DNA from: Kangiella koreensis DSM 16069
GTDB lineage: Bacteria > Pseudomonadota > Gammaproteobacteria > Enterobacterales > Kangiellaceae
Length of the DNA: 64,000 nt
Direction: 5' to 3'
NCBI RefSeq assembly: GCF_000024085.1
Contig: NC_013166.1
Location: 868,001 to 932,000 of the forward strand
A program made the translations under genes and the position numbers. Shown here in pieces: positions 30,972 through 54,253 of the stretch. Position 1 is the first letter of the stretch. Every line of letters begins with the position of its first letter. Below the pieces are notes generated by a model. It did not search any database, had not been told where the DNA came from, and worked only from the letters and a program-made list of their open reading frames with translations.

Positions 30972-31670
30972 ATGACTGAAAATAAAACGAAGATTTGGGC
31001 ACTGATTCCAGCCGCAGGAATTGGCAGTCGCATGAAATCAGAACTACCAAAGCAGTATCTTGAAATCGACGGTAAAACCATTCTAGAGCATAGCCTATCC
31101 AGGTTTCTCGAACATCCTTCTATCGATAAAGTTGTTGTTGCCTTACATGCCAATGACAATTATTGGGTAAAACTTAAAATCGCCAACCACCCTAAAATCA
31201 TTACCATTGAAGGTGGTGCGACTCGAGCAGAGTCAGTACTTAATGGTTTAAAAGCGATTCAGCAGCAACACGGACAAGATGATTGGGTGATGGTGCACGA
31301 TGCAGCCAGGCCCTGCCTTGATAACGCTAGCATTGATGCGTTAATACAAGCCGGTAAAGATTCAGCGCACGGCGCCATTCTCGCCTACCCATCGGTCGAT
31401 ACTGTCAAACTGGCAAACGCCAATCAAACGATAGATAAAACAATCAACCGTGAACAGATCTGGCTGGCCCAAACTCCACAATACTTCCCAGTCAATGCTT
31501 TGGCAGAGGCCATTGAAGCAGGTTTTAAGCAAGGTATAACCATAACCGATGAAGCTTCCGCTATTGAAGCACAAGGTATGCACCCAGCTTTAGTCATAGG
31601 AACTCGCAAAAATATTAAAGTCACCGAGCCGGAAGACATGATGTTAGCATCGGTTTGGCTGGTAACTTAA
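30972..31670 (+). CDS. ispD: 2-C-methyl-D-erythritol 4-phosphate cytidylyltransferase
   Basis: 232 residues. MEP pathway, joins MEP and CTP to CDP-ME. Motifs: LIPAAGIGSRMKSELPKQYL (CTP-binding loop), HDAARPCLDNASIDALI, and QTPQYFPVNALAEAIEAG, ITDEASAIEAQG, IKVTEPEDMMLA. Its pathway partner ispF normally follows directly, but here begins nearly 8 kb downstream, after the his operon. Confidence 0.96.
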   Translation: MTENKTKIWALIPAAGIGSRMKSELPKQYLEIDGKTILEHSLSRFLEHPSIDKVVVALHANDNYWVKLKIANHPKIITIEGGATRAESVLNGLKAIQQQHGQDDWVMVHDAARPCLDNASIDALIQAGKDSAHGAILAYPSVDTVKLANANQTIDKTINREQIWLAQTPQYFPVNALAEAIEAGFKQGITITDEASAIEAQGMHPALVIGTRKNIKVTEPEDMMLASVWLVT

Positions 31671-31675
31671 AACTT

Positions 31676-31703
31676 GTAGGGGCAATTCATGAATTGCCCG
31701 TAC
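31676..31703. repeat. Palindrome after ispD
   Basis: GGGCAATTCA/TGAATTGCCC forms a perfect 20-base palindrome at 31680-31699 inside GTAG...GTAC. It begins six bases after the ispD stop and resembles widely scattered intergenic palindromes. The 31704-31939 interval that follows shows no gene. Confidence 0.6.
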
Positions 31704-31939
31704 GAAAGATATGCTATCGGATGGAGATATGCTTATCCGAACTACGGTGCTGATTTTAAGTTCACGTTTAAGCAAAGATCATCCTCTGTAGAATAGGTGT
31801 CAAAGTCTATCCCACAAGAAATGCAGGCTTGCTCCAATAACCCCCCTTAGATTGAGCTGAGTAGTAGCCAAGACATAGCAATTCAAATCTTGGATGATTT
31901 GAATAGTAAAATTCGGGCCAGGGATGGAACGTATTTTAC

Positions 31940-32070
31940 GGTGCGTTAAGTGGCTTGGCGGAGACGAAGGAAGTTGAGCAAAGCGAGACCTCAATCTCGG
32001 GGCGCGTTTCTTTTTGCCTCCTTTTTCTTACGCGAATAAGAAAAAGGAGGTCGCTGAGAAGCGAAACACT
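31940..32070 (+). repeat. Dispersed intergenic repeat, copy 1
   Basis: It starts GGTGCGTTAAGT, has CCTCAATCTCGGGG in the middle (31989-32002), and a 14-bp perfect hairpin CCTCCTTTTTCTTA / TAAGAAAAAGGAGG (32017-32030, 32037-32050), ending in a GCGAAACACT segment. The same order of blocks is found on the opposite strand at 53885-54016. Lies upstream of the his promoter. Confidence 0.7.
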
Positions 32071-32140
32071 CAATAAACCCTATAGTTTGTAACCCCCTGC
32101 AAATAACCATCAGTTCCACTATTAAATAGTAATGACGCTG

Positions 32141-32169
32141 TTGACTCTAATCACTGAATAGGTTTTAAT
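32141..32169 (+). promoter_or_regulatory. his operon promoter
   Basis: TTGACT (32141-32146), exactly 17 bases of spacer, TTTAAT (32164-32169): a near-consensus sigma-70 promoter. Transcription should begin near 32176, right at the ATG of leader peptide 1. An 11-base direct repeat, AGTAATGACGC, occurs at 32128-32138 and 32185-32195, flanking the promoter, with unknown meaning. Confidence 0.75.
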
Positions 32170-32176
32170 CAGCCTC

Positions 32177-32251
32177 ATGAATACAGTAATGACGCAAATT
32201 CACCACCATCACCACCATTCAGACCGATTGGCGGTGTTGCTTTATGTGTGA
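32177..32251 (+). CDS. hisL: His-operon leader peptide 1 (six consecutive His)
   Basis: 24 residues: MNTVMTQI, six histidines, SDRLAVLLYV, stop TGA. The internal ATG at 32189 would give MTQI-H6-SD, very like E. coli HisL (MTRVQFK-H7-PD). No ribosome site precedes either ATG; the promoter position implies a leaderless message from 32177 or a short leader to 32189. His codons at 32201-32218 are both CAC and CAT, so a shortage of charged tRNA-His stalls the ribosome here. A terminator follows 22 bases after the stop. Confidence 0.88.
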   Translation: MNTVMTQIHHHHHHSDRLAVLLYV

Positions 32252-32273
32252 AATTTACTGTTAAGAATTTCTA

Positions 32274-32303
32274 AAAGCCCCGCCAACCAGCGGGGCTTTT
32301 TTT
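32274..32303 (+). terminator. Attenuator terminator 1 of the his operon
   Basis: AAAGCCCCGC (32274-32283), loop CAACCA, GCGGGGCTTT (32290-32299) and seven T (32297-32303). Bases 32280-32286 (CCGCCAA) can pair instead with 32228-32234 (TTGGCGG), and 32230-32236 (GGCGGTG) can pair with the His codons 32210-32216 (CACCACC, one mismatch). These three exclusive pairings are the pause, antiterminator and terminator states of an attenuator. Confidence 0.9.
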
Positions 32304-32355
32304 ATGCCTACAATTTTTGAAACTGATAAATAAACTGATTAACTGAGATAAAAAG

Positions 32356-32442
32356 ATGTTTTTAAACAAGAGCTTACATCATCACCATCATCATACACTG
32401 CGCGAGCGACGGTGGTGGTGCTTATGTTTAAGGCTTTTTTAA
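32356..32442 (+). CDS. His-operon leader peptide 2 (six consecutive His)
   Basis: 28 residues: MFLNKSL, six histidines, TLRERRWWCLCLRLF, stop TAA. The His codons lie at 32377-32394. ATG 32356 has only a weak GAGATAAAAAG site. The message at 32380-32389 can pair with 32411-32420 over ten bases (two G-U), and this pairing explains the odd WWC codons. It is unrelated in sequence to leader peptide 1 apart from the His run, so it is either a second origin or an old, diverged duplication. A second terminator follows. Confidence 0.85.
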   Translation: MFLNKSLHHHHHHTLRERRWWCLCLRLF

Positions 32443-32476
32443 GATTCAGTTAAACAGCTAAGACACCCAGGTTTAG

Positions 32477-32512
32477 AAACCCCGTTGCTCCGAAAGGTCA
32501 ACGGGGTTTTTT
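32477..32512 (+). terminator. Attenuator terminator 2 of the his operon
   Basis: AAACCCCGTTG (32477-32487), 11-base loop, CAACGGGGTTT (32499-32509), T-run to 32512. A possible antiterminator is CGACGG (32407-32412) with CCGTTG (32482-32487), one wobble. The preceding GGTTT-AG-AAACC (32470-32481) overlaps its left arm. hisG begins 61 bases later. Confidence 0.85.
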
Positions 32513-32573
32513 ATTGGCTTTAATAAATGATGATTTTGAAACTTTAAAATTTTTAAACTTTAGGAGAAATGAC

Positions 32574-33422
32574 ATGGCTTTAAAAATGGTAATCCCAAAA
32601 GGGAAGTTGTATGACAAGGTTGCTGAGTTGCTTTCGGATATTGGTTTGACATTGGTTGGTGACAGTCGTAATTATCGCCCTCAGTTATTTGGCTGTGATA
32701 TCGAAGTTAAGTTGCTGAAAAGTCAGAATATTCCAGAAATGGTGGCGCTAGGGCAACACGATATTGGTTTTGCGGGGATGGATTGGGTTCTGGAGCAGGA
32801 GGCTGATGTTGAGGTGCTTGAAGATTTAGGTTTTAACCCGGTCAGACTAGTGTCCTGTATTCCTGAGGAGTGGGATTGGAACGAGGTGCAGCAACGTAAA
32901 ATCATTGTCGCTTCGGAGTATAAGAAAATCTCCGCTAAATATCTGGATAAATTAGGCGTCAAATACCAACTGCTTCGTGCCTATGGTGCGACTGAAGTTT
33001 TCCCGCCTGAAGATGCTGACATGGTCATCGACAATACCAGCACCGGTTCGACTATTCGCGCCAATCGATTGAAGATTGTAGATACGGTAATGGAGAGTTC
33101 AACACAGCTTATCGCTAATAAGGACATTATGAATGATCCCGCAAAGCGTCAACAGATTGACGACCTTTTGCTTTTGATGCGCGGTGTCCTTAATGGTCGT
33201 AAGCGTGTGTTACTGGAAATGAACTGTTCAGAAGAAAGCATCGATAGAGTTGTCGATTTGTTGCCTGCAATGCGAGCTCCAACCGTCAGCCAACTGTATA
33301 ACGCCGATGGATTTGCTATTAAAGCAGCGATTGAACGCAAGCTGATTAAAGACTTATTACCAAAACTCATTACTGCGGGGGCGACCGATATCCTGGAAAC
33401 GCCAATCCGCAAAGTGCTTTAA
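32574..33422 (+). CDS. hisG: ATP phosphoribosyltransferase HisG
   Basis: 282 residues from ATG 32574, which follows AGGAG; the longer TTG at 32514 lies in the terminator and is rejected. First step of histidine synthesis: ATP and PRPP to PR-ATP. This is the long form with its own regulatory C-terminal ACT-like domain (about 200-282, SEESIDRVVDLLPAMRAPT), so no HisZ is needed. Motifs: MVIPKGKLYDKVAELL, LGQHDIGFAGMDWVLE, MVIDNTSTGSTIRANRLKIV (PRPP loop). Confidence 0.95.
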   Translation: MALKMVIPKGKLYDKVAELLSDIGLTLVGDSRNYRPQLFGCDIEVKLLKSQNIPEMVALGQHDIGFAGMDWVLEQEADVEVLEDLGFNPVRLVSCIPEEWDWNEVQQRKIIVASEYKKISAKYLDKLGVKYQLLRAYGATEVFPPEDADMVIDNTSTGSTIRANRLKIVDTVMESSTQLIANKDIMNDPAKRQQIDDLLLLMRGVLNGRKRVLLEMNCSEESIDRVVDLLPAMRAPTVSQLYNADGFAIKAAIERKLIKDLLPKLITAGATDILETPIRKVL

Positions 33423-33446
33423 CTCGCCGATTAAAGGATGAGAGTG

Positions 33447-35129
33447 ATGAATATGAAAGAAATCAAAACTGAGCCATTAAAGCTCGATTTTAATGAGCGG
33501 GCGGATCGTTTTCCGTCCTGGCTTGATATGAGTAAGCTATCACCACAAAACTATTGGCGTTACCCGGATCAGACTGAACTGAAGTTAGAGATGAGCAATC
33601 AGCTTGGTCTTCAGCCTGAGCAGGTTATGGTCTCGAACGGCGGTGATGAAGCGATTGAGCTGATGTTTAAAGTCGCTTGCCTGGAGCAGAAAGAACTTAT
33701 TATTCCTATGCCGGCATTCAGTCAATATCTATCAGGAATTAAGATTTGGAATAGTAAAGCACAATTAATTCCGGCTCAGGAAAACCAGTCAATTGATCTC
33801 GAAGCGAGCCTTAACGCTTTAACTGACAAATCAATCCTGGTTTTGACCAGTCCGAATAACCCAACCGGTGAAACACTTTCGTTGGATGTCATTAGAGATG
33901 TTTGTAAAAGGGCAAAGAAGAAAGGAGCAGAGGTTTTTCTCGATCAGGCCTATATTGAGTTTACAGGACAGGCTGAAGAGTCGCTTTCTTTGCTTGAAGA
34001 ATTCGATAACCTGATTGTGCTGCGCACCTTGTCCAAAGCTTACGGGCTTGCAGGCATTCGTTGTGGCTATCTGTTAGGTAATCAATCTTTCATTAAGCGA
34101 TTTACTGATCGCAAGATGCCATTCAATGTTCCTCAGCCAACATTGGAAATTGCACGTCAGGCATTCTCATCAGAAGCTCAAAATGATGTGGCTGACTTTT
34201 GCCAGCAGATTGCTAATAACCGCGACCAGTTAGTGCAATTTTTACGCCAAAGAGGTTTGAATGTATTAGACAGCGAAGCAAATTTCATTCTGATTGTGGA
34301 TGCTCCGGAACGTCTGCAATTAATAAAAGCAGCCTGTGAACTGAATAATATTCAGATCAAAACCGATTTGGTTGGACTTGATTTACAGGACCAATCGGCT
34401 ATTCGTATTGCCATTCCTTATGACTTTGAACCTTTACGACAAGCATTATTTTTAGCTCTTAAACCTGAACTGATATGCTTTGATATGGATGGTGTCCTGA
34501 TTGATACCAGTAAGAGTTATGACGCTGCTATCAAGCAAACTGTAGAGTTCTTTATTGGCACACAACCACAACAACAAGCAATCGACACATTACGTTCACG
34601 TGGCGGATTTAATAATGACTGGGTGCTGACTTATGAGTTGATCAAGCAAAACATGGATGACTCTTTGCCAGATTATGAGCAGATAGTTGAACAGTTTCAG
34701 ACTTTGTATTTAGGCAGCGATAATGATGAAGGCCTGAATCAGCTTGAAGAAGCAATTCTCACTTCTGAATTATGCACACAGATTTTTGTACAGAACAGCA
34801 AGCAATTTAAAACCGCGATAGTAACAGGGCGCCCGCGTGCTGAAGCGCAAATTGGCTTAGACCTGTTAGGGATTCGCAATACGTATTTGGTTAGTGATTG
34901 TGATGTTATTGAGTCTAAGCCTGCGCCAGAAGGGATCAATCAATGTAAAGCTTATTATGGCGCTACCTATTGTTGGATGCTCGGTGATACACCGGATGAT
35001 ATTCAGGCGGCTAAAGCAGCTGGCGCATTGGCTATTGGCGTTAGTAGCAAAGAAAACGAACAAAATTTATATCAAGCTGGTGCCGATCTGGTAGTGGCGT
35101 CGGTAAATGATTTAGAGAGGTTATTATGA
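33447..35129 (+). CDS. hisC: Bifunctional HisC aminotransferase-HAD phosphatase fusion
   Basis: About 560 residues. Residues about 1-340 are a class I/II PLP aminotransferase of HisC type: LDFNERADRFP, SNGGDEAIELMFKVAC, SPNNPTGETLS, PLP-Lys in TLSKAYGLAGIRCGYL, and the C-terminal RIAIPYDFE. Residues about 345-560 are a complete HAD hydrolase: ICFDMDGVLIDTS (motif I), IVTGRPRAEAQ (II), SKPAPEGI (III), MLGDTPDDIQAAKAAG (IV). HisC makes histidinol phosphate; the HAD half probably removes its phosphate, since the hisB here lacks that domain. Start: ATG 33447 has AAAGGA eight bases upstream; 33438 and 33453 are alternatives. Overlaps hisB by 4. Confidence 0.9.
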   Translation: MNMKEIKTEPLKLDFNERADRFPSWLDMSKLSPQNYWRYPDQTELKLEMSNQLGLQPEQVMVSNGGDEAIELMFKVACLEQKELIIPMPAFSQYLSGIKIWNSKAQLIPAQENQSIDLEASLNALTDKSILVLTSPNNPTGETLSLDVIRDVCKRAKKKGAEVFLDQAYIEFTGQAEESLSLLEEFDNLIVLRTLSKAYGLAGIRCGYLLGNQSFIKRFTDRKMPFNVPQPTLEIARQAFSSEAQNDVADFCQQIANNRDQLVQFLRQRGLNVLDSEANFILIVDAPERLQLIKAACELNNIQIKTDLVGLDLQDQSAIRIAIPYDFEPLRQALFLALKPELICFDMDGVLIDTSKSYDAAIKQTVEFFIGTQPQQQAIDTLRSRGGFNNDWVLTYELIKQNMDDSLPDYEQIVEQFQTLYLGSDNDEGLNQLEEAILTSELCTQIFVQNSKQFKTAIVTGRPRAEAQIGLDLLGIRNTYLVSDCDVIESKPAPEGINQCKAYYGATYCWMLGDTPDDIQAAKAAGALAIGVSSKENEQNLYQAGADLVVASVNDLERLL

Positions 35130-35722
35130 GTCAAATAAAGAACCAAAGCTCGATAGTTTCCATTGTCCGCCAGACTAAAGAGACGGCCATTCGCCTGGAT
35201 CTTAATATCTATGGTCAGCAGAAACTCAAGATCAATACTGGACTGCCATTCTTTGATCACATGCTCATTCAGTTAGCATTACATGCCGGTTGGGATCTGA
35301 ATCTGGAAGCCAATGGTGATTTAGAAGTTGATGATCACCACTTAATCGAAGATGTGGCGATTTGCTTAGGGCAGGCTCTGCAGCAAGCATGGCGCGAACA
35401 AGAGTCGATCACCCGCTATGGACAACGACTGTTACCGATGGACGCCAGTTTGATCATGGTGGCGGTGGATGTGTGTGGACGTGGTTATGGCATCACGGAT
35501 TTGCCTTTTACTCGTGAAATGATTGGCAATATTGCTACCGAAATGTGGAAACATTTTTTCTACACTTTTGCGATTAACGCACAAATTAGTCTGCACATTA
35601 AAGTGGAATATTTTGATAACAATCACCACTTAATTGAAGCCAGTTTCAAAGGGCTTGCTTTTGCGTTACGTGAAGCTTTGATTGCCAAAGAAGGTGCGAA
35701 CAGTTCCAAGGGCAGTTTATGA
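35126..35722 (+). CDS. hisB: Imidazoleglycerol-phosphate dehydratase (HisB, dehydratase domain only)
   Basis: 198 residues. Mn-dependent dehydration of IGP. Contains the duplicated metal-binding motifs: FFDHMLIQLALHAGWD with DDHHLIEDVAICLGQAL, and KHFFYTFAINAQISLHI with DNNHHLIEASFKGLAFALREA. Typical enterobacterial HisB is about 355 residues with an N-terminal histidinol-phosphatase; here that domain is absent. ATG overlaps the hisC stop (ATGA), so translation is coupled. Confidence 0.95.
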   Translation: MSQIKNQSSIVSIVRQTKETAIRLDLNIYGQQKLKINTGLPFFDHMLIQLALHAGWDLNLEANGDLEVDDHHLIEDVAICLGQALQQAWREQESITRYGQRLLPMDASLIMVAVDVCGRGYGITDLPFTREMIGNIATEMWKHFFYTFAINAQISLHIKVEYFDNNHHLIEASFKGLAFALREALIAKEGANSSKGSL

Positions 35723-36327
35723 GTGATTCAGTGATTAAAGAAGCCTCTAAAACAGTGGGTGTGATAAATACTGGAGCGGGCAACTTATATAGCTTAAATG
35801 GCTGCTTACGTCGTATGGGTTTTTATCCAGTCACTATCAATCAACCAAGCGATCTGGAGCGCTACGACATTTCGGCTTTGGTGATTCCTGGTCAGGGGCG
35901 ATTTGGAACTGTGATGACTAACCTGAAAGCCTGCGCTCTAGATGAGGTGATTACGAACTGGTATCGCGATAACAAAAAACTGGTCGGCATCTGTGTCGGC
36001 TTGCAGATTATGTTTGAAGAGTCAGAAGAGGATCCTGGTATGGCTGGACTCGGGTTATTGCAGGGTAAAGTGACTAAGTTACAAAGCCCGAAACAACCAA
36101 TGGTTGGTTGGGCTGATGTTCAATCGAGTGAAGATTGGCTCAACAATCAGACACTTTATTTCGTCAATAGCTATGGTGTTAGTGACAGTGATAAGTCGAT
36201 TGCCACGGTAACTTATGGGCAAACGTTTGTTGCTGCTGTTGCCAGTAATAACATGATTGCATTTCAATGCCACCCTGAAAAATCCGGTGCAGCTGGTGAA
36301 GAGGTATTAAAGCAATGTCTGAGTTAA
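35719..36327 (+). CDS. hisH: Imidazole glycerol phosphate synthase, glutaminase subunit HisH
   Basis: 202 residues. Supplies ammonia to HisF. Class I amidotransferase: NTGAGNLYSLNGCLRRMGF, oxyanion region VIPGQGRFGTV, nucleophile Cys in LVGICVGLQIMFEES, His/Glu in AFQCHPEKSGAAG. Two sites differ from the common form (usual PGVGAF is PGQGRFG), showing a divergent branch. It overlaps hisB by 4 and hisF by up to 13 bases. Confidence 0.93.
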   Translation: MSDSVIKEASKTVGVINTGAGNLYSLNGCLRRMGFYPVTINQPSDLERYDISALVIPGQGRFGTVMTNLKACALDEVITNWYRDNKKLVGICVGLQIMFEESEEDPGMAGLGLLQGKVTKLQSPKQPMVGWADVQSSEDWLNNQTLYFVNSYGVSDSDKSIATVTYGQTFVAAVASNNMIAFQCHPEKSGAAGEEVLKQCLS

Positions 36328-37151
36328 TGAACAGCCCTCAATTAACCAAAAAAATGGAGCAGGGCCTTAAGTCGCGAGTAATTGTTTGTCTTGATGTGGC
36401 ACACGGACGGGTGGTTAAAGGAGTTAATTTTAAAGGTCTGCAAGATATGGGCGATCCGGTTGAACTGGCTATCCGATATCAGGAGCAGGGCGCGGATGAG
36501 ATTATTTTCCTCGATATTAAAGCAACTCTTGAACAGCGTGCTAATGCTTTAGAAGTTGTAACTCGAGTGGCAGAAAATCTATCGATTCCTTTTACGGTCG
36601 GCGGCGGACTGAATACTTACGCTGATGTGGCGCAGTTCTTGAATGCCGGTGCTGACAAAGTAGCGCTCAATAGTGCTGCAGTTAAGCACCCGGACTTGGT
36701 TGATGAAATTGCTAAAGGATTTGGTTCGCAATGTGTAGTGGTGGCGGTCGACTTAAATCAAGAGCAGGATCAGAAGACTCAAGGTTCAAGTGAGTATGAG
36801 GTCTATATCAATGGTGGTCATACCCTAACCGATCTGAATGCCATGCAATGGCTTACAGAAATAGAACAGCGTGGCGCGGGAGAAATTCTATTAACGGCTA
36901 TGCACCGTGACGGAACTGGATTTGGTTTTGATAATGAACTGATGAGCCAGGTTAGTAAGAAGCTCGGTATTCAGGTTATTGCATCGGGCGGGGCCTCAAA
37001 GCCAGCACATTTTACTGACACATTTTTGGCTGGCAGCGATGCTGCATTAGCTGCGGGGATGTTCCATCGCGGTGAGTTCACTGTTGGTCAGGTTAAACAA
37101 GAATTGCTCAATAACGGCGTTGCCGTTCGTATTGAAAAGCTAAAATATTGA
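36315..37151 (+). CDS. hisF: Imidazole glycerol phosphate synthase, cyclase subunit HisF
   Basis: 278 residues from ATG 36315 (GAGG about ten bases before). ATG 36327, overlapping the hisH stop as TAATG, is the other option and would shorten it by four. TIM barrel: [20 protein letters not shown] (Asp of CLD), [61 protein letters not shown] (second Asp), [29 protein letters not shown]. Makes IGP and AICAR with HisH. About 20 residues longer than E. coli HisF, mostly at the N-terminus and in the 150-165 loop. Confidence 0.94.
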
Positions 37152-37163
37152 AGGATAAAAGTT

Positions 37164-38402
37164 ATGTTGATTCCAAGTATTGATTTGTTAGATGGCAAAG
37201 CTGTGCAGTTACAGCAGGGGGATGCCAGCCGGAAAATTGTTGAGAAAGATAATCTGTTTGAACTGCTGGAAGAGTTTTCTTTGTTTGGTGAAGTGGCAAT
37301 TATTGATCTGAATGCAGCTCTAGGTAAAGGCGATAATAAAGCGTTAATTAAGCAGCTGATTAAGAAGTTTTCCTGTCGTGTAGGTGGTGGAATCCGTAAC
37401 TATGAAACTGCTCGCGAATATCTGTCCAGCGGTGCTAAAAAAATTATTTTGGGCACAAGCTGTCGCGAAGACTTTGTCAAAAAGCTCCCTCGTTCTCAAT
37501 TGATATTCGCGATTGATGCTAAAGGAGATGATTGGGTCACGCACGGTTGGCAGTCTTCTTCTGACAATAAAGTGGCCGCCATGATTGATGAACTGCAGGA
37601 CAACTGCTCAGAGTTTCTTTATACCCAGGTGGAGAAAGAAGGCATGATGCAGGGCATTGATCGTGAGCGTATTGAGCAGGTCATCAAACAATCAAAGATT
37701 CAAGTTACCGTTGCTGGTGGGATCACTGATCTGGATGACATCAAATTCATCAACAAACTGGGTGCGAACAGCCAGTTAGGCATGTCAATTTACACGGGTA
37801 AGCTAAAACTGGATGAGGCTGTGATGGCCTGTCTTGATTTTGATAAGGCGCCATTGATTCCAACCATTGTCCAGGACGTGGATACCGGCAGTGTGCTGAT
37901 GCTGGCTTACTCAACACCAGAGTCATTACAGGCTGCCATGACGCAGAAGAAAGGAATTTATTTCAGCCGTTCGCGCAACGAGTTGTGGGAGAAAGGTTTA
38001 ACCAGCGGCAATCAACAGCAGTTGATTAATATTGACTATGATTGTGATGGTGACACTTTGGTATTTAAAGTGAAGCAGAAGGGCAATGCCTGCCACTTTG
38101 ATCGTTACAGCTGCTTTGCTGGCCAATCGGCCAATTTTGATCTGGATGTTTTGGATCGCGTTTTTGAGCAGCGAATGCAAAGTCAGGAAGTGACAAGTTT
38201 TAGTCAGAAACTTTTGGCTAGCGATGATTTGCAGCAGGAAAAATTACGCGAAGAGTGCGAAGAGTTAATTGAAGCGGATGATCAAGATGAGGTGCGTTGG
38301 GAAGCGGCTGATTTGATCTTCTTTGCCTTGGCACGAGCAAAGTCGAAGGGTGTGGCAGCCAGTGATATCATCAACGAATTAGGAGCGCGAAATGGCGGAT
38401 AA
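37164..38402 (+). CDS. HisA-HisI-HisE trifunctional fusion
   Basis: 412 residues. Residues about 1-230 are a divergent HisA barrel (IPSIDLLDGKAVQLQQGDAS, VAIIDLNAALGKGDN, CRVGGGIRNYETAREYLSSG, FAIDAKGDDWVTHGW, VTVAGGITDLDDI). About 235-340 is HisI cyclohydrolase (LMLAYSTPESLQAAM, YFSRSRNELWEKGLTSGN, DCDGDTLVFKVKQKGNACHF). About 345-412 is HisE pyrophosphatase (KLREECEELIEADDQDEVRW). HisIE fusions are common, but a HisA in front is unusual. HisE and HisI do steps 2 and 3, HisA step 4. The HisA part departs from the usual signature, so isomerase activity is inferred. Overlaps hisD by 11. Confidence 0.85.
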   Translation: MLIPSIDLLDGKAVQLQQGDASRKIVEKDNLFELLEEFSLFGEVAIIDLNAALGKGDNKALIKQLIKKFSCRVGGGIRNYETAREYLSSGAKKIILGTSCREDFVKKLPRSQLIFAIDAKGDDWVTHGWQSSSDNKVAAMIDELQDNCSEFLYTQVEKEGMMQGIDRERIEQVIKQSKIQVTVAGGITDLDDIKFINKLGANSQLGMSIYTGKLKLDEAVMACLDFDKAPLIPTIVQDVDTGSVLMLAYSTPESLQAAMTQKKGIYFSRSRNELWEKGLTSGNQQQLINIDYDCDGDTLVFKVKQKGNACHFDRYSCFAGQSANFDLDVLDRVFEQRMQSQEVTSFSQKLLASDDLQQEKLREECEELIEADDQDEVRWEAADLIFFALARAKSKGVAASDIINELGARNGG

Positions 38403-39609
38403 ATCTTACATAGAGTGCGCTTCTAACTGGAAGCGTCCTAATCTCACACAATCGCCTGAATTATTTCAACAGGTAGCTAAGCTATTAAAGGAAATTGAGA
38501 CTGGTGGTGATCTAGCCATTGATAACCTCAGCAAGCGATTCGATGGCTTTCAACCGCGTAAAATCGAGTTGCGGCCTTATCGTGACTATGAGCTAGAGCC
38601 GCAATTATTAAACTCGATTGAACAGGCTGCTCAACGTATTGAAGCTTTTTGTCAGTTACAGAAAGGTTCTTTGCAACCGCAGCAGATTGAAGAAGCAAGC
38701 GGCGTGTTTGGCTTTCAGTATAGCCCGATAGAAGCGATTGGCGCCTATATTCCAGGTGGACGCTTTCCACTGATTTCAACCGCACTAATGACCTTGATTC
38801 CAGCGCGCGTTGCAGGTTGTCAGCGTCGAGTCGCTTGTTCCCCATCGGTACACCCAGCAATTTTAGCGGCAGCTTCGTTGGCGGGAGCGACAGAGTTCTG
38901 GCAAATTGGTGGTGCTCAGGCCGTCGCAGCAATGGCCTATGGTTATCAGACCATGTTGCCGGTACAGATGGTGGTGGGGCCGGGCAATCAATATGTGAAC
39001 GTGGCAAAGCAATTATTGCAAAGCCGTATCAAAATTGATGTGGCTGCGGGACCAAGCGAGCTGCTCATTCTTGCTGATTCTAATGCTAACCAGGAATGGC
39101 TCATTGCAGACATGGCAGCGCAGGCTGAGCATGATCCGCAAGCGCAAAGTGTATTGGTTAGTGACGATATAGCTTTTCTGCAATCCATTGGGCAGCAGCT
39201 TACTGCTAATGATGAGCTCAATAATTTACTCAAAGGCGAGCAGATAGTTTTGTTGCAAGCGAATGATTGTGAGGCCATGATCCGGTTCAGCAATCGCTAT
39301 GCGCCAGAACACCTGTTGCTGGCTGATGAGCGAATAGCGTCGCAAAGCCTGAAGCATTATGGCTCGCTCTTTATTGGACAGAATAGCGCAGTAGCTTTCG
39401 GGGATTATTGTGCCGGTCCAAACCACACATTACCTACTATGGGTAGCGCGAATCGTTCCAGCGGCTTATGCGTGCAAAGCTTTATGAATATCCAGTCCTA
39501 TCAGCAGATTAACGATCAAGGTCGTATCCAATTGGCGGAGATTGGCCGACCGCTGGCTGAAGCTGAGCAATTGGTTTGGCATGAACGCAGTATGCAGGTA
39601 AGATCCTAA
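38392..39609 (+). CDS. hisD: Histidinol dehydrogenase HisD
   Basis: 405 residues. Zn- and NAD-dependent, two oxidations from histidinol to histidine. Motifs: IEAIGAYIPGGRFPLISTAL, GGAQAVAAMAYGYQTM, VVGPGNQYVNVAKQLL, IDVAAGPSELLILADS, AAQAEHDPQAQSVLV, YAPEHLLLADE, FCAGPNHTLPT-like DYCAGPNHTLPTMGSA. Placed last in the operon rather than second as in enterobacteria. It is shorter than E. coli HisD (434). Forty bases of gap before ispF, with no clear terminator. Confidence 0.95.
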   Translation: MADKSYIECASNWKRPNLTQSPELFQQVAKLLKEIETGGDLAIDNLSKRFDGFQPRKIELRPYRDYELEPQLLNSIEQAAQRIEAFCQLQKGSLQPQQIEEASGVFGFQYSPIEAIGAYIPGGRFPLISTALMTLIPARVAGCQRRVACSPSVHPAILAAASLAGATEFWQIGGAQAVAAMAYGYQTMLPVQMVVGPGNQYVNVAKQLLQSRIKIDVAAGPSELLILADSNANQEWLIADMAAQAEHDPQAQSVLVSDDIAFLQSIGQQLTANDELNNLLKGEQIVLLQANDCEAMIRFSNRYAPEHLLLADERIASQSLKHYGSLFIGQNSAVAFGDYCAGPNHTLPTMGSANRSSGLCVQSFMNIQSYQQINDQGRIQLAEIGRPLAEAEQLVWHERSMQVRS

Positions 39610-39648
39610 CAACGAGTCTTTTCTTTAAGCGCGATTGTTGGGATGGTT

Positions 39649-40137
39649 ATGTTTCGAATTGGTCATGGTTATGACGTTCATAAATTTGGTGGCGATAGCC
39701 CATTAATTTTGGGCGGTGTTGAATTTCCGGGTGAGCAGGGTTTGCTTGCTCATTCGGATGGCGATGTGGTGTTGCATGCTATCTGTGATGCGCTGTTAGG
39801 AGCTATTGCTAAAGGTGACATTGGTCATCACTTTCCCGATACCGATGAGACATTCGCTGGCGCCGATAGTCGTGGTTTGCTAGTGGCTGTGATGCAACAA
39901 GTTGAGGAAGAAGGTTATGAGCTTGGCAACCTTGATGTCACCATTGTGGCACAGGCCCCCAAAATGGCCGCTAAGATTCCTGACATGCGTAAGGTCATTG
40001 CGGATATTTGCAAGGTTGAGTTAAACCAGGTGAATGTTAAAGCCACCACTACCGAGCAACTGGGTTTCATCGGGCGCAAAGAAGGCATCGCTGTGCACTC
40101 GGTCTGTTTGCTGCAATCTTACAAGAGCGTAGCCTAA
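39649..40137 (+). CDS. ispF: 2-C-methyl-D-erythritol 2,4-cyclodiphosphate synthase
   Basis: 162 residues from ATG 39649. Makes MEcPP in isoprenoid synthesis. Motifs: [12 protein letters not shown] (Asp, His metal ligands), [55 protein letters not shown] 39643 two codons upstream is equally possible; the shorter start gives the usual MFRIGHG. Normally adjacent to ispD, here displaced by the his operon. It runs into truD with a one-base gap. Confidence 0.96.
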
Positions 40138-53884: not shown

Positions 53885-54016
53885 GCTCAAAGTTTCGCCA
53901 CTTGGCGAGTTACTTTTCTTGCGTGGTCAAGAAAAGTAACCAAAAGAAGACCACCCCGATATTGAGGCCACACTTCGTGTGACTTCCTGCGCCACTCCCA
54001 AAATACTTAACGCACC
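53885..54016 (-). repeat. Dispersed intergenic repeat, copy 2 (inverted)
   Basis: Read on the minus strand it gives GGTGCGTTAAGT, then CCTCAATATCGGGG, then a 13-bp perfect hairpin (GTTACTTTTCTTG / CAAGAAAAGTAAC at 53909-53921 and 53928-53940), then TGGCGAAACTTT. Block order and spacing match copy 1 at 31940. Extra small hairpins: CGCCA-CT-TGGCG (53896-53907), CACAC-TTC-GTGTG (53969-53981). The rest of the 53809-54253 gap shows no gene. Confidence 0.7.
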
Positions 54017-54253
54017 AGAATTTACATCACATCCTTGTGCTGAAAATTCTTATCAAAATCATCCACGATTTTGATTGCTATATTTTGTACGTGTCTTAGC
54101 TCAATATAAAGGGGTAATTGGTGCTAAACGTCAGGCTTCTTAAGTTTATGGTTAGGCCATAACCACCTTTTAAGAACAATTGTTTCCTGATATTCCTCGA
54201 CTGATCCCTTTCTAGACCTTAAAATGCGGCTATATTCTTGAAGTGGTAACATC

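Follow-up and report, generated by a model that had tools for sequence, protein, structure and literature searches.

Two putative histidine attenuators placed in series upstream of hisG in the genus Kangiella

The locus analysed here lies in a window of 64 kb (the whole stretch of DNA examined) from the Kangiella koreensis genome, which consists of one contig of 2,852,073 bases. All coordinates are positions in the window, and all features of the his leader region are on the forward strand. A gene read as ispD is followed by a promoter, unit 1, unit 2 and then hisG (32574 to 33422), the first gene of the operon, whose product matches the Pfam families HisG and HisG_C. Five proteins of the operon were tested by Pfam and are histidine biosynthesis enzymes, so that both candidate attenuator units precede histidine biosynthesis genes. 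The operon lies, within 30972 to 40137, between genes which, read by eye, we take to be ispD and ispF; by eye again, the flanks looked different in some relatives.

Two short frames with six His codons each had been predicted at 32201-32218 and 32377-32394, and both were found at these positions. Leader ORF 1 (32177 to 32251, 24 aa, peptide MNTVMTQIHHHHHHSDRLAVLLYV) runs from an ATG at 32177 to a TGA stop ending at 32251. A small correction is that it has a second candidate start, the in-frame ATG at 32189. Leader ORF 2 (32356 to 32442, 28 aa) encodes MFLNKSLHHHHHHTLRERRWWCLCLRLF and is preceded by a weak Shine-Dalgarno pairing of -2.7 kcal/mol. When ORFs with an upstream start codon and at least 5 His in 7 codons were searched on the two strands of the whole window, ORF 1 and ORF 2 were the only ones retrieved, and the same rule applied to the + strand of 20 mononucleotide shuffles gave none. 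The original prediction of a hairpin with a T run after each leader was also borne out, with stem limits corrected to 32273-32300 for terminator 1 (32273 to 32303 with its T run) and to about 32476-32509 for terminator 2 (32476 to 32512 with its T run). Their folding energies are -18.2 kcal/mol (z -4.9) and -21.9 kcal/mol (z -4.5) respectively, and none of 200 shuffles was as stable in either case. Folds of the whole units gave z values of -4.5 for unit 1 and -4.3 for unit 2. A generic motif scan lists neither terminator. Among 19 Kangiella genomes, one pair of the unit 2 terminator is C-G in 11, A-T in 6 and G-C in 1, and the two positions do not pair in the remaining one.

Each unit also contains a predicted antiterminator arm placed shortly after the His run. 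The arm of unit 1 (32227 to 32234) is separated from the His run by 8 nt and pairs with 32280-32286, and that of unit 2 (32404 to 32412) is separated from it by 9 nt and pairs with 32482-32490. Both pairings use the 5′ arm of the terminator, which makes antiterminator and terminator mutually exclusive. Duplex energies are -16.1 kcal/mol (p 0.004) for unit 1 and -23.2 kcal/mol (p 0.002) for unit 2. Folds that begin behind the His run and take in the terminator 5′ arm gave the unit 1 antiterminator for 32219-32286 (z -2.2, 3 of 200 shuffles as stable) and that of unit 2 for 32395-32490 (z -2.3, 5 of 200). Over the genus, pairing beat dinucleotide-shuffled arms at p≤0.05 in 17/19 first and 16/19 second units, and the stricter level of p≤0.01 was reached in 11/19 and 12/19; the units with p>0.05 were unit 1 of genomes L022 and L034, and unit 2 of L025, L028 and L030. 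Pairing in unit 1 is kept despite changed letters in L024, L025 and L028, where it reads GCGGGG/CCCCGC (p 0.028, 0.036 and 0.014), and in L034 the GGGGCT/AGCCCC pairing has a p of 0.10 taken alone. One pair of the unit 2 antiterminator is G-T in 16, A-T in 2 and G-C in 1 of the 19 Kangiella. True covariation is thin, because the unit 2 columns are mostly invariant and the outer two pairs there fail or have gaps in 7 and 3 of 19 rows, while in unit 1 many rows do not keep the outer pairs.

A hairpin engaging the His codons (the 1:2 hairpin) is predicted in both units but does not stand out from shuffles in the window, with 8 of 200 shuffles equally stable for unit 1 and 53 of 200 for unit 2. 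Across Kangiella, the 1:2 duplex energies range from -4.9 to -17.1 kcal/mol, with weak values for unit 2 of L030 (-4.9) and unit 1 of L034 (-5.9); K. koreensis and its four nearest relatives have values of -13.1 to -17.1 kcal/mol. In these same five genomes ORF 2 extends 8-12 codons past the R-R-W at the antiterminator arm, so that a ribosome on the stop codon probably would not mask the arm, and a longer ORF 2 tail goes with a stronger 1:2 duplex (rho -0.69, n=19 phylogenetically non-independent genomes). In K. koreensis, ORF 2 stops 30 nt beyond the antiterminator arm, so that a ribosome at its stop codon is unlikely to mask the arm, and the histidine-replete state should then depend on re-formation of the 1:2 hairpin.

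The best-scoring predicted sigma-70 promoter upstream of both units is TTGACT-17-TTTAAT, at 32141-32169. Its score, computed with approximate weights, is 11.4; when the 70 nt 5′ of ORF 1 were shuffled, 4 of 200 sequences scored as high. The earlier proposal was one near-consensus promoter before both units, and no candidate between the units beats shuffles. The generic motif scan, which requires an A at position 2 of the -10 box, omits this promoter. A promoter 5′ of unit 1 beats shuffles in 15/19 Kangiella genomes (0 to 4 of 200 as high), the exceptions being L022, L027, L028 and L030 (20 to 98 of 200). For the stretch between the units the count is 0/19, with 38 to 175 of 200 shuffles scoring as high. 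The gap between terminator 1 and the ATG of leader 2 is 21 to 66 nt over the genus, and 21-25 nt in six genomes. From these sequence features we infer that units 1 and 2 share a single transcript.

We then asked how widely the pair is found. The family survey comprised 40 genomes, 36 of them with hisG: 19 of 20 Kangiella (the missing one is 55% complete) and 17 of 20 from other genera of the Kangiellaceae. The DNA upstream of hisG was read for all 36, a unit being counted when a short ORF had 4 or more His within 7 codons and its own terminator behind it. Two units were present in 18/19 Kangiella and one in 1/19. This nineteenth genome, L030, has a second unit with three His, MSYLFSVHHHQILGKRRWDRL, and with a three-His rule all 19 have two units. 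Lack of conservation of leader 2 among close relatives had been named as one finding that would refute the pair. The proposal stood this test, since the second unit is kept in 19/19 Kangiella, with three His in one, and the pair is also present in the most divergent Kangiella sampled (hisG 71% identical). The other Kangiellaceae had one unit in 15/17, none in 2/17 and two in 0/17, or exactly one in 17/17 when three His were permitted. Of 394 genomes in a sample of the order, 80 were taken from families other than Kangiellaceae, with one genome for each genus, and hisG was present in 72 of the 80. For 70 of these 72, the 800 nt upstream of hisG were read, yielding one unit in 61, none in 9 and two in 0, or 63, 7 and none respectively with three His permitted. 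The view that his operons elsewhere have a single leader thus fits both the 17 other Kangiellaceae and the 70 other genera. Within this sample the tandem pair marks the genus Kangiella, and the best reading of its distribution is that the double attenuator was fixed on the Kangiella stem.

How the pair arose was approached by comparing the units. Local similarity between unit 1 and unit 2 exceeded the best of 100 shuffles in 11/19 genomes, but shared His codons and T runs could produce this as well as a direct duplication. A profile built on 18 single units scored unit 1 (median 36.9 bits) above unit 2 (23.3 bits), a slight hint that unit 1 may be ancestral in type and unit 2 a newcomer.

Both units score under the gathering cut-off of the Rfam His_leader model RF00514 (28.1 and 30.8 bits, versus 49), and this model gave no match anywhere in the K. 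koreensis genome at E≤0.1. At E≤0.001 it matched 7 of 369 genomes of the class, 3 of them within the order. A re-run on 43 genomes with at least two matches, plus our own, produced no adjacent same-strand pair. Second matches were either opposite-strand copies of the same hairpin or far away, the nearest one on the same strand being 865 nt off (genome G310, 25.7 bits). This is a weak negative, as the re-run used stricter filters and failed to recover the tandem units of four Kangiella genomes that were among those searched, and the survey was therefore based on direct reading of the sequence 5′ of hisG. Two genomes have distant pairs of above-cut-off matches, G212 at C1:1567128 and C1:1624498, 57 kb apart, and G310 on different contigs, C19 and C41. 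These perhaps correspond to a second His-controlled operon rather than to a tandem.

Our main reading is that the leader region carries two complete ribosome-mediated histidine transcription attenuators, in series on one transcript before hisG, to which we give a probability of about 0.8. Each of the two units has its own sensor and its own expression platform, and both leaders carry His runs, so that the locus is of the same-signal type and not of the mgtCBR type, where two different signals are read. With the parts of a classical attenuator present in both units, the simplest mechanism is two decisions in series. When charged tRNA-His is plentiful, the ribosome would clear the His codons of leader 1, the antiterminator arm of unit 1 would be masked or would return to pairing with the His-codon arm, terminator 1 would form and RNA polymerase would stop near 32303. 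Polymerases escaping this terminator would face an identical decision at leader 2 and terminator 2, near 32512. Under shortage of charged tRNA-His, ribosomes would stall on both His runs, both antiterminators would form and polymerase would reach hisG. Translation, stalling and termination at both units are predicted here from the DNA. Under this mechanism expression would be the product of two read-through probabilities, so that the basal leak would be multiplied down and the logarithmic sensitivities would add, with a sharper response as the presumed benefit of such a double lock. The maintenance of the pair across the genus suggests that it probably lowers expression of the his genes under ample histidine and sharpens their response to histidine shortage.

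Other readings of the locus have to be weighed against this one. Interruptions of the first His run in several Kangiella species (HHDHHH, HHNHHH and HHSNHH, for example), together with the three His only of unit 2 in L030, could mean that a single unit regulates, the other being a relic or a fixed terminator that merely lowers expression. We consider this unlikely: the His cluster, an arm capable of antitermination and the terminator are kept in both units in the 19 genomes, most divergent one included, and a fixed terminator needs neither His codons nor a conserved antiterminator. Nor do we see much to recommend a second promoter serving unit 2, by which the two attenuators would gate different transcripts. 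The window does have a weak TTGAAA-16-TTAACT between the units (score 7.7), but 44 of 200 shuffles equal this score, the inter-unit stretch stands out in none of the 19 genomes, where 38 to 175 of 200 shuffles are as high, and the gap is down to 21-25 nt in six of them. An inter-unit promoter was rejected on these counts, and the reading is very improbable.

The codons that follow the second His run raise the question of whether leader 2 senses another amino acid, namely Trp, Arg or Cys, as it reads RRWWCLC at this place in K. koreensis. However, the conserved R-E-R-R of the K. koreensis leader is essentially the antiterminator arm read as codons, with W coming directly next, and the tail beyond R-R-W differs among genomes (WCLCLRLF, DELYMAK, DE or none). 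What the leaders have in common is their His codons. The idea that leader 2 senses Trp or Cys was rejected for these reasons, and we hold sensing of another amino acid to be extremely improbable. Finally, a short RNA and a peptide ending at terminator 1 might act in trans, in the manner of rnTrpL and peTrpL of S. meliloti, a precedent described in passages of PMC7298713. If transcription starts at 32177, termination in unit 1 would yield a small leaderless mRNA of ~127 nt. Peptide 1 varies between species outside its His run, which speaks against such a function, and we give it little credence; it would in any case be compatible with attenuation and not exclusive of it.

The two attenuators in series may differ in how their leaders are translated. 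Leader 1 has an in-frame ATG 6-8 nt past the -10 box of the best-scoring promoter in 19/19 Kangiella (7 nt in K. koreensis); in the window and in L014, L015 and L016, the ATG with that spacing is the upstream one of two. Transcription usually starts about 7 nt past the -10 box, so that leader 1 should begin at or beside its AUG. Leader 2, placed downstream of terminator 1, must initiate internally. Leader 1 is thus predicted to be leaderless, and leader 2 not. An ATG 5-11 nt after the -10 box was found in 12/15 single-unit Kangiellaceae with an ORF (excluding one Kangiella row that appeared twice) and in 2/63 cases in other families, where the distance was at most 12 nt, negative values included, in 9/63. 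Shine-Dalgarno pairing had a median of 0.1 for the first leaders of Kangiella versus -3.0 for other families, and that of leader 2 is weak (-0.7 to -5.4 kcal/mol, 18 genomes scored). Three points speak against a leaderless leader 1: the promoter weights are approximate, four of the 19 promoters are not above shuffles, and 5/19 first leaders are preceded by Shine-Dalgarno-like pairing (-3.1 or -3.2 kcal/mol), located in the would-be promoter stretch.

If leaderless, leader 1 would make this an amino-acid attenuator of the Gammaproteobacteria that depends on leaderless initiation; we know of no other, which does not prove that none exists. A gate differing from its neighbour in start mode could let the his operon read charged tRNA-His and the translation-initiation state together, as a coincidence detector. 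This proposal is tentative and we regard it as rather doubtful. If true, 70S versus 30S initiation, for instance, would be sensed via the difference between the gates, which is more than a steeper switch. In other bacteria, passages of the papers concerned describe the trpL leader peptide of S. meliloti as leaderless (PMC7298713) and discuss the ilvBNC attenuator of C. glutamicum in terms of leaderless initiation (PMC11857589).

Compared to known systems, the units resemble the E. coli and Salmonella his attenuator (RF00514) in their His-codon leader, their alternative antiterminator and terminator hairpins and their position before hisG. They differ from it by being two in series, both under the cut-off of the model, with the first predicted to be leaderless. 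Double locks of other kinds are already known. The Salmonella mgtCBR region also has two leader ORFs in one leader, but they respond to different signals (ATP and proline) with additive effects, and its hairpins do not resemble intrinsic terminators according to the authors (PMC3641672). The mefA/msrD genes are governed by two ribosome-mediated attenuators, termed a double-lock system by their authors, but these are macrolide-induced resistance genes, and the second attenuator controls msrD alone (PMC10314930). Two leader peptides precede the single gene ermB, where the attenuation is translational and induced by erythromycin (PMC8274638). In the pseudo-cooperative tandem riboswitches (PMC9481103) and tandem T-boxes (PMC9413887), too, two complete units for the same signal, each with its own expression platform, give a steeper response; in these, however, the RNA binds the ligand or the tRNA directly, with no leader peptide or ribosome. 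The rimP leader of several Gammaproteobacteria has tandem terminators, with a second terminator and a potential antiterminator upstream of the first, but the gene is rimP and an amino-acid leader peptide is not described in the passages concerned (PMC2965389). Serial leader-peptide attenuators for the same amino acid were absent from the literature matches listed, which are mostly restricted to papers outside subscription, so that their absence is unproven.

What is new here would therefore be the doubling of a sensor for the same amino acid, the fact that a whole genus has it, and the two ways in which translation is predicted to start. With serial units for one amino acid kept throughout a genus and a single unit in its sister genera, the system amounts to a natural experiment. 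The Kangiella pair allows a direct test of whether stacked ribosome-mediated attenuators cut the leak, steepen the response, or both, an argument on leak and steepness that has been made for tandem riboswitches (passages of PMC9481103). A model of single attenuators explains the sensitivity of his leaders (PMC1183508), and its passages concerned with this point do not treat two attenuators in series.

Some observations on the operon and its surroundings were made along the way. Among the named relatives of this HisG, 10 loci carry the label Kangiella, one is labelled Kangiellaceae bacterium and one Pleionea. A HisG of this type (at least 59% identity) was found only in Kangiellaceae (65-99%) and in four of the 80 sampled genomes from other families of the order; other HisG matches in that sample are 25-32% identical, and a search at E≤1e-60 over 369 genomes of the class returned our own genome only. 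This HisG type is possibly an old transfer. Two genes of the operon are fused, one encoding an aminotransferase joined to a HAD-type hydrolase (33447 to 35126, HisC and a probable histidinol-phosphatase), the other HisA joined to HisIE (37164 to 38399). HisB is the dehydratase alone, and hisD comes last. A TwoAYGGAY RNA motif is present at 31860-31966 on the + strand (47.1 bits, for an Rfam cut-off of 43). The genome has 14 such matches at E≤0.01, 12 of them above cut-off, including another in the window at about 53980-54111 on the - strand. It looks like a dispersed element with no part in the his switch. An inverted repeat with 14 bp per arm (CCTCCTTTTTCTTA ... TAAGAAAAAGGAGG) was seen by eye at 32017-32050, between ispD and the his promoter, and related letters were also seen by eye upstream in L015.
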